64,000 nt of DNA, taken from positions 49,335 through 113,334 of the forward strand of contig VGVG01000004.1 of the NCBI GenBank assembly GCA_016874055.1. The letters are read 5' to 3'. This stretch comes from Gammaproteobacteria bacterium (GTDB lineage: Bacteria > Pseudomonadota > Gammaproteobacteria > Steroidobacterales > Steroidobacteraceae). The stretch's first letter is position 1; each line of letters starts with the position of its first letter. This document shows positions 57,366 through 59,571 of this stretch, piece after piece. The position numbers and the translations under genes are program-made. The notes below the pieces were generated by a model. That model saw only the letters and a program-made list of their open reading frames with translations. It had not been told where the DNA came from and did not search any database.

Positions 57366-57550
57366 CGTTACCTGCAGTGTTCGACAGCGAATCGGGATAC
57401 CTCTCGACCCTAAGTTTGAACGCCCAGGGGCATCCGGACTTGCTGTCAGCATTGTGCATGTCCGCCCTCGAGCGGAAAGCCTTACCTGACGTAGTCCGCC
57501 CCACTTGTTGCTCTGTGTCGAGAGCAACGGTTCGCACCGGCACAGGCGGG
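57366..57550 (+). ncRNA. ssrS: 6S RNA
   Basis: RNA polymerase-sequestering RNA that mimics an open promoter. It lies between zapA and fau, the conserved site. Recognisable blocks: a 5' end resembling cctgcagtgttcg, the 5' bubble strand with cctctcgaccc and gtttgaacgcccaggggcatcc, the 3' strand agcggaaagccttacc, and a closing end gcaccggcacagg. A strong hairpin (gttgctct-gtgtcg-agagcaac) lies near the 3' end, and a poly-T stretch (tctttttttt) follows at about 57560. The ends are approximate; I could not fold it. Confidence 0.75.
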
Positions 57551-57588
57551 TGACGTCTCTTCTTTTTTTTCCGTCGGAGGGCCCCGTA

Positions 57589-58179
57589 GTGACCGAGCGT
57601 CGCTCATTGCGCAAAGCTTTGCGCGCAGCGCGAGCGGGGCTTTCCCCTCTCGAACGGCGCCACGCTGCGGAGCGCATCGCCGACCTCATCGCAAAAACGC
57701 TCTGGCTCAAACCCGGCATCCGAGTGGCGCTCTACGCCGCCCTCCCCGAAGAAATCGACACCTCGCCGCTCATCGCACTCGCTGCCCGGCGCAGCGCAAC
57801 GATCTTCCTCCCGCGCATCGAAAACGATCGTGCCCGCCGCATGACGTTCGCCCGACCCGGCACTCATCGTCGATATAACCGCTATGGCATTCCTGAACCC
57901 GCCACCAGCGAGCGCATCGCTCCTTGGGCGCTACAAATCATTTTTGCACCCTTGGTCGGCTTTGACACACGCGGTAATCGTATTGGTATGGGCGCTGGAT
58001 TCTATGATCGGGCGCTCGCCTTCCGTCGTTACCGTCACCACTGGTTTGGACCGCGCCTAATCGGCATCGCCCACTCCTGCCAGCAGGTGGAAGCCCTCGA
58101 TCCATTACCTTCGGACACTCCTCTCGACGCCGTCGTAACCGAGCGCGAGATTCATGTTTTTCGCGGAGAAAATCGATGA
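57589..58179 (+). CDS. fau: 5-formyltetrahydrofolate cyclo-ligase
   Basis: Converts 5-formyl-THF to 5,10-methenyl-THF with ATP. The track ORF runs through the 6S RNA; a GTG at 57589 preceded by cggagg gives 196 residues beginning TERRSLRKALRAARAGLSP. The conserved ATP/substrate motif is NRIGMGAGFYDRAL, and PLVGFDTRGNR precedes it. In E. coli the gene is read from the 6S transcript and is linked to persister formation. Its stop overlaps the EVE gene start. Confidence 0.9.
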   Translation: MTERRSLRKALRAARAGLSPLERRHAAERIADLIAKTLWLKPGIRVALYAALPEEIDTSPLIALAARRSATIFLPRIENDRARRMTFARPGTHRRYNRYGIPEPATSERIAPWALQIIFAPLVGFDTRGNRIGMGAGFYDRALAFRRYRHHWFGPRLIGIAHSCQQVEALDPLPSDTPLDAVVTEREIHVFRGENR

Positions 58180-58646
58180 ATCATTGGCTGATGAAAACCG
58201 AACCTTCCACTTTCAGCATCGACGATCTCGCCAAGGCTCCAAAGCGCACCACCTGCTGGGACGGCGTGCGCAACTATCAGGTCCGCAACATGCTGCGTGA
58301 CCAATTAGCGGTCGGAGATCTCGCTTTCATGTACCACTCGAGTTGCGAGGTTCCGGGTATAGTCGGCGTGATGAAGGTGGTGAGTAAGGGCTACCCCGAC
58401 TTCACCGCTCTCGATCGAAAGCATACGCACTACGACCCCGACTCAAACCCTAAAAAACCGCGTTGGTACATGGTCGATGTACGTCTCGAACAGCGTTTTC
58501 CAAAGGTGATTTCGCTCGGTGAACTTCGTGCGCATGCGAGCGGTAAGTTGCACGAGCTGCTAATCCTCAAACGCGGCAACCGACTTTCGATCACTCCGGT
58601 GAGCTCTGCAGAGTGGGGCTTCATCCACTTGCTCGCAACGTCGTGA
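58176..58646 (+). CDS. EVE-domain protein
   Basis: PUA-like EVE fold, thought to bind modified bases in nucleic acid; many are fused to defence nucleases but this one is stand-alone. The 156 residues contain NHWLMKTEPSTFSIDDLAK, TCWDGVRNYQVRNMLRD, GDLAFMYHSSCEVPGIVGVMKV and KRGNRLSITPVS, all conserved. Overlaps the fau stop by four bases. Often found next to fau/zapA in gammaproteobacteria. Confidence 0.92.
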   Translation: MNHWLMKTEPSTFSIDDLAKAPKRTTCWDGVRNYQVRNMLRDQLAVGDLAFMYHSSCEVPGIVGVMKVVSKGYPDFTALDRKHTHYDPDSNPKKPRWYMVDVRLEQRFPKVISLGELRAHASGKLHELLILKRGNRLSITPVSSAEWGFIHLLATS

Positions 58647-58669
58647 AGCTTTCCGCAAGACCCCCTTGC

Positions 58670-58697
58670 TTGTTTTTTACAATCGCATGTATATACT
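58670..58697 (+). promoter_or_regulatory. Sigma70-like promoter for the 15-residue ORF
   Basis: TTGTTT at 58670-58675 and TATACT at 58692-58697 are spaced by 16 bp, close to consensus, giving a predicted start near 58704 and a 5' leader of about 27 nt. The tract is more A/T-rich than its neighbours. It lies after the EVE stop and drives only the tiny ORF before a terminator. Confidence 0.6.
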
Positions 58698-58730
58698 CCC
58701 CCTCGGACTAACCCGTAACTGGAGGATCTC

Positions 58731-58778
58731 ATGGCCAAGAAAAAGGCTCATCATAAGAAAGCCGCCAAGAAGAAATAA
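58731..58778 (+). CDS. 15-residue Lys-rich peptide MAKKKAHHKKAAKKK
   Basis: Too short for the ORF track. An excellent Shine-Dalgarno (actggaggatctc) lies directly before the ATG, a near-consensus promoter lies about 35 bp upstream, and an intrinsic terminator follows. The product has nine Lys and two His in 15 residues, the rest Ala plus Met, so it is strongly basic and suited to nucleic-acid, ribosome or membrane binding. Codons are a mix of aag and aaa, not a simple repeat, which argues for selection on the protein. I do not recognise a family. It could instead be the leader part of a small RNA. Experimental support is needed. Confidence 0.6.
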   Translation: MAKKKAHHKKAAKKK

Positions 58779-58842
58779 GATCTTCGGGATCTTTGGTGGG
58801 TGAGGACGTTAATCTCGCCCGCTACTTCTGGATAAGACCGAG

Positions 58843-58872
58843 GATGCCCGCTTGCGCGGGCATCTTCGTTTT
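58843..58872 (+). terminator. Intrinsic terminator after the tiny ORF
   Basis: A nine-base perfect stem (gatgcccgc / gcgggcatc) with a ttgc loop is followed by ttcgtttt. It closes a transcript of about 165 nt starting at the promoter near 58700 and containing only the 15-codon ORF. It overlaps the start of the longer track ORF for rpiA, supporting the later rpiA start at 58906. Confidence 0.75.
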
Positions 58873-58905: not shown

Positions 58906-59571
58906 ATGCCGATGAACACTGCAGTGAACGGAAAGCTCGCCGCAGCGCGTGCAGCGTTGCAATACCTCGAAGACGACATCATCGTCGGTGTAGGTACCGG
59001 CTCGACGGTCAACCTTTTCATTGATGAACTTGCTGCCCGTCGCGAGCGGATCCGCGGGGCTGTATCCAGTTCGGAAGCTTCCACCGCTAGAATGCGGGCG
59101 GCGGGCATCGAGGTCCTCGAGCTCAATCGGACCGGCGACCTTCCCCTCTACGTGGACGGGGCCGACGAGACCGACGGCTATCGTCGGCTAATCAAAGGCG
59201 GCGGAGCCGCACTCACCCGCGAGAAAGTCGTCGCCGCAGCGTCACGAAAATTTGTGTGCATCGTCGATGAGTCAAAAGTGGTCGATATACTCGGTCGATT
59301 TCCCCTGCCCGTCGAGGTGATTCCGATGGCGCGCTCCTACGTGGCACGGCAACTCGTAAGGCTCGGGGGTCGGCCGGTTTGGCGAGAAAACGTCACTACT
59401 GACAACGGCAACCAGATCCTCGATGTGCATGGTTTACGCATCCTCGACCCACCCACACTCGAGGCGGCCATCAACGGTATTGCGGGGGTCGTGACCTGCG
59501 GTCTGTTCGCTCACCGGCCCGCCGATGTGGTGCTAATCGGCGGACCGAATACAGTCCGTCGCCTCGAGTGA
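58906..59571 (+). CDS. rpiA: Ribose-5-phosphate isomerase A
   Basis: Interconverts ribose-5-P and ribulose-5-P in the pentose phosphate pathway. From the ATG at 58906 ([21 protein letters not shown]) the product has 221 residues. Conserved blocks are [48 protein letters not shown] (catalytic Asp and Glu) and [12 protein letters not shown]. The track start at 58852 lies inside a terminator. Complements rpe at 62 kb. Confidence 0.93.

Follow-up and report, generated by a model that had tools for sequence, protein, structure and literature searches.

A conserved 15-residue lysine-rich peptide gene upstream of rpiA in Steroidobacteraceae that seems to be a shrunken form of a bacterial histone H1-like protein

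A small gene between an EVE-domain gene and rpiA in a 64,000-nucleotide stretch of Steroidobacteraceae DNA (contig VGVG01000004.1 of assembly GCA_016874055.1, hereafter the window) encodes a 15-residue lysine-rich peptide, which from comparison of its locus across families seems to be a shrunken form of a 94-195-residue bacterial histone H1-like protein. The best explanation, to which we assign a probability of roughly 0.65, is that the conserved gene encodes a histone H1-like tail in minimal form, and that this small polycation would bind nucleic acid or polyphosphate. The peptide is H1-like, but Hc2 and BpH1 exceed it in length by an order of magnitude; its gene is among the smallest stand-alone genes with traceable ancestry, and is a conserved gene much smaller than those that standard annotation is built to report. 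That the unit is coding and also orthologous to long lysine-rich proteins appears close to certain.

Table 1. Elements of the peptide unit and neighbouring genes, in window positions.
Feature	Position	Strand	Details
zapA		+	before 6S RNA; named from sequence and position
6S RNA	57366-57556	+	Rfam RF00013, 62 bits; between zapA and 5-FCL gene
5-formyl-THF cyclo-ligase (5-FCL) gene		+	after 6S RNA; named from sequence and position
EVE-domain gene	58176-58646	+	PF01878; upstream of peptide unit
Peptide unit	58670-58872	+	between EVE gene and rpiA
-35-like element	58670-58675	+	TTGTTT; from sequence; inside conserved stretch TTGCTTGTTTTTT starting at 58666
-10 element	58692-58697	+	TATACT within TGTATATACT; from sequence and relatives
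Predicted 5'UTR	58704-58730	+	GGACTAACC, highly conserved; transcription start inferred
Leader segment	58704-58715	+	CGGACTAACCCG
Shine-Dalgarno	58721-58725	+	GGAGG; from sequence; GGAG kept in leader-bearing relatives
Small ORF	58731-58778	+	MAKKKAHHKKAAKKK; ATG at 58731, TAA at 58776-58778; 15 aa
Lys codons AAGAAG	58767-58775	+	can pair with CTTCT
Hairpin P1	58777-58793	+	AAGATC-TTCGG-GATCTT; overlaps stop codon; 17 genus members
Hairpin P2	58794-58824	+	12 pairs, 7-nt loop
CTTCT	58825-58829	+	after P2; nearly invariant in genus
Terminator hairpin	58840-58867	+	GAGGATGCCCGC-TTGC-GCGGGCATCTTC; 12 GC-rich pairs, then GTTTT (GTTTTGGG)
rpiA	58906-59571	+	family search; downstream of peptide unit

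The features of the unit and its surroundings are listed in Table 1. The order zapA, 6S RNA and 5-FCL gene is the classic gammaproteobacterial arrangement. The promoter of the peptide gene, with a 16-nt spacer between TTGTTT and TATACT, matches the sigma-70 consensus at 8 of 12 positions and was not called in a strict promoter scan of the window, and its initial description as near-consensus was therefore overstated. On the family level, TTGCTTG(T/C) is found at a constant distance from the -10 element in nearly all Steroidobacteraceae loci, and the pattern TTG-N16-20-TATATACT occurs a single time in the window's own genome, at the peptide gene promoter. The first part of the leader is conserved more than promoter function requires. 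The proposed ribosome-binding site was borne out, both by its sequence and by its retention in relatives. Control by CsrA/RsmA through GGA motifs was considered and set aside, the first GGA being missing from some long-form families.

The initial annotation had correctly read an ORF of 16 codons from ATG to TAA, i.e. 15 sense codons and a stop; its lysine content of 60% was a miscount, the actual figure being 53% (8 of 15 residues). A DNA search of 60 relatives recovered the unit, whole or partial, in 32, and the complete units in same-genus and same-family loci all contain a Lys/Ala ORF behind a common leader. A contig pattern scan for TGTATATACT-gap-CGGACTAA returned at least 120 stretches, and the matches listed derive mostly from Steroidobacteraceae, Steroidobacter, Peristeroidobacter or Proteobacteria MAGs. 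Among these listed matches all complete ORFs behind the leader were in frame (106/106), with peptides of 14-27 residues, plus one of 61, and with length differences of whole codons. Listed matches that did not show a complete ORF fell at a contig or locus end (L110), in other phyla as chance matches, or at a scaffold gap (L152). The latter was rejected as an exception with leader and no ORF, since the gap lies inside the ORF; the leader matches in Flavobacteria, Clostridia and Dysgonamonadaceae come without the -35 stretch and the ORF and look like chance.

Differences between the short-form ORFs are mostly synonymous, with pN/pS of 0.09 for the 16-residue class, 0 for the 17-residue class, 0.18 for the 21-residue class and 0.38 for the 22-residue class. 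Promoter, leader, ORF and hairpin recur together at one locus across Steroidobacteraceae, and this recurrence, together with the dominance of synonymous differences, exceeds what chance would give. A real transcription unit for a tiny basic peptide, as first proposed, is thus upheld. Two of the checks named at the outset point the same way: synonymous-site variation preserves the peptide, and the pattern expected of a noncoding RNA, with promoter and terminator kept and the frame lost in relatives, was not seen among the listed matches, where a Lys/Ala peptide appears wherever the ORF could be read to its end.

The origin of the peptide is indicated by the corresponding locus in other families of the same order. 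At least ten sister families have the same order, EVE gene, X and rpiA, where X is a lysine-rich repeat protein of 94-195 residues (families f2, f3, f4, f5, f6, f9, f10, f11, f14 and f16). Such long-form loci (e.g. L056, L046 and L188) have the same -10 element, a related leader, an RBS and, where read, a hairpin of the GCCCGC/GCGGGC type, and their products are orthologues of the 15-residue peptide. For 14 long forms, the 90 bases immediately upstream of the start codon were compared by alignment with short-form leaders, and 11 of the 14 scored above the best of 200 shuffles. A 108-residue form is found after the 5-FCL gene in another order (L207). Since long forms occur in the sister families as well as in that order, they are by parsimony likelier to be ancestral, and the short peptide a contraction. 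The repeat region would then have contracted at the base of Steroidobacteraceae, leaving a few units of the (A/S/T)KKK type. A search with profile A2 found long H1-like proteins elsewhere in none of 40 Steroidobacteraceae genomes, which is moderate evidence for their absence, as the profile recovered only 8 of 12 known positives. A 61-residue form with AKAKVKTK-type repeats in the window's genus (genome G009, L019 1567-1752) looks like a re-expansion. Similar-looking proteins with lysine-rich N-termini from other orders were set aside as mostly HU-like and unrelated to the peptide; L209-L213, from other orders of the class, are HU-like and carry an additional Lys/Ala-rich stretch at the N-terminus (MAAKKKAAKKK...).

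The initial remark that no described family was known for the peptide is not supported, because its sister-family orthologues at the same locus are histone H1-like lysine-rich repeat proteins of Hc2/AlgP-type composition, some of them above the PF07382 (HC2) cut-off. In one search the long forms at this locus in three genomes (G037, G052 and G053) exceeded that cut-off; in another, long orthologues scored below it. The 61-residue form gave no match to PF07382, the 15-residue window peptide is below the 20-residue minimum of the profile search, and a search of NCBIfam placed no family above cut-off for the lysine-rich proteins. Text searches of the literature open without subscription, using the peptide strings or Steroidobacter together with small protein, returned no relevant paper.

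The closest known systems are Hc2 (HctB) of Chlamydia and BpH1 of Bordetella (PF07382; NCBIfam NF038052/NF038053). Short Lys/Ala-rich repeats are common to both and to the peptide locus, the length varies by repeat number, and the peptide and its orthologues have the same repeat composition without a globular domain. On the other hand, Hc2 comprises 165-237 and BpH1 182-206 residues (PMC2848022), a typical range of about 165-240 that neither the window peptide nor its family (14-27 residues, one of 61) reaches. The C-terminal KPAA tail of Pseudomonas AlgP/PhaF is likewise H1-like, of low complexity and cationic, albeit part of a larger protein whose N-terminal domain is helical, and built from KPAA instead of (A/S/T)KKK units. 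H1-like tails of Hc2 and AlgP are reported to bind DNA or to associate with polyphosphate granules (PMC2848022, PMC9239181), and the AlgP tail binds DNA and is needed for granule spacing (PMC9239181).

The peptide would be abundantly expressed and, by analogy, would bind electrostatically and without sequence specificity to polyphosphate or to nucleic acid, whether in the nucleoid or as RNA, as is reported for the long H1-like proteins. We find such a polyanion-binding mechanism, whether the partner is DNA, RNA or polyphosphate, reasonably probable, and the earlier suggestion of binding to rRNA, DNA or polyphosphate was a sensible guess. A 15-mer with a charge of about +8 may bind only weakly at cellular ionic strength, however, so that a function by analogy with proteins of 100-200 residues is uncertain. 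At this single locus, and with promoters of one kind, orthologues occur naturally in graded lengths between 195 and 14 residues, so that one can test directly how much of an H1-like tail function requires. A type I toxin peptide was rejected: there is no hydrophobic membrane-spanning segment, Met and Ala being the sole hydrophobic residues.

The 3' part of the transcript bears on whether the RNA has a role in addition to its peptide. Compared with shuffled sequences, the 181-nt transcript has a fold that is better by 4 SD. In P1, 95 of 102 cells are paired over 17 sequences and both sides have changed at three of the six pairs, while 2000 arm shuffles, which ignore relatedness, gave at most 93/102. 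P2 is constant in shape and varied in sequence within the window's genus, and a strong hairpin resembling P2 but of different sequence is present in many other genera. The CTTCT that follows P2 can pair with the Lys codons indicated in Table 1, and the stop codon would then lie within a closed multibranch structure.

The fold of the transcript, P1 and P2 are in line with a dual-function transcript, in which the peptide is made and P1, P2 and the terminator also act as a small RNA. Against this, the RNA structure is not conserved wherever the ORF is: several peptide-bearing genera lack P1 and P2 and have just 17-27 unstructured nucleotides from the stop codon to the terminator hairpin, so that the peptide is what stays constant and the 3' structure is what varies. 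The shuffle controls for P1 do not account for relatedness, P1 and P2 may merely protect the mRNA 3' end, and in an Rfam search of the window (E up to 5) only the 6S RNA and tRNA were above the cut-offs, with no family at its gathering score for the peptide transcript. The dual-function idea of the initial annotation thus draws some support from the compensatory changes in the window's genus and loses it in genera without the hairpins; we judge it unlikely, and any second role of the RNA would be lineage-specific. A more elaborate scenario, in which a protamine-like 15-residue peptide is repeat-contracted from a 94-195-residue H1-like protein and encoded by a family core gene, and in which the structured 3'UTR of its transcript has in some genera acquired regulation as a further role, is put forward only tentatively and with considerable doubt.

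The unit was also described as stand-alone and as ending in a perfect GC hairpin terminator. The 12-pair GC hairpin is there, with GCCCGC-loop-GCGGGC in nearly all loci; its U-tract is short and weak (the tail is most often GTTTCTGG, with an average of 3.7 T in 8), and the hairpin was not called in a strict terminator scan of the window. It is probably leaky, so that a fraction of transcripts would extend into rpiA. The distance from the hairpin tail to rpiA has a median of 39 bases across loci, and in the window rpiA starts 34 bases past 58872. The unit is stand-alone only in part: it has its own promoter and hairpin, and rpiA follows with almost no room for a promoter. Read-through is the simpler reading, since a separate rpiA promoter would overlap the hairpin, and rpiA probably depends on read-through from the peptide unit.

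Read-through raises the question of a lysine leader peptide, where ribosome stalling at the Lys codons would decide whether transcription passes the hairpin into rpiA. As with amino-acid leader peptides, the ORF is short, is dominated by a single amino acid (8 of 15 codons for Lys) and is followed by hairpins, and the rpiA start, about 34 nt past the hairpin with little promoter room, would fit. The downstream gene, however, is rpiA, which is no lysine-biosynthesis gene, where an attenuator would be expected to precede a gene that makes or transports the amino acid; orthologous ORFs of up to 195 codons are far too long, and no conserved, mutually exclusive antiterminator was found, the 17-27 nt between stop and hairpin in several genera being too short for one. 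We consider attenuation very improbable.

A functionless, decaying remnant of a longer H1-like gene is equally improbable. In its favour, the peptide is far shorter than its orthologues, and the whole unit has been lost from one same-genus MAG (G020), leaving EVE-57 bp-rpiA. Nevertheless, of 150 sampled genomes of Steroidobacteraceae 114 contain the leader pattern, as do 86 of the 95 good-quality ones, nearly always once per genome (a small number of duplicates seem to reflect overlapping contigs), and the gene is under purifying selection with a conserved promoter. The absence of the unit from G020, and from a genome of another family (G055), counts against the favoured reading in so far as it is dispensable somewhere. 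Least credible is a noncoding RNA with a fortuitous ORF, which could invoke the structured transcript but on the sequence comparisons is already contradicted by the in-frame ORFs among the listed matches, their whole-codon length changes and mostly synonymous differences, the conserved Shine-Dalgarno and the long protein-coding orthologues.

The order of EVE or 5-FCL gene, peptide gene and rpiA is conserved, even after loss of the EVE gene. In the g34 genomes (L217-L222) the EVE gene is absent, and the peptide gene is retained between the 5-FCL gene and rpiA.
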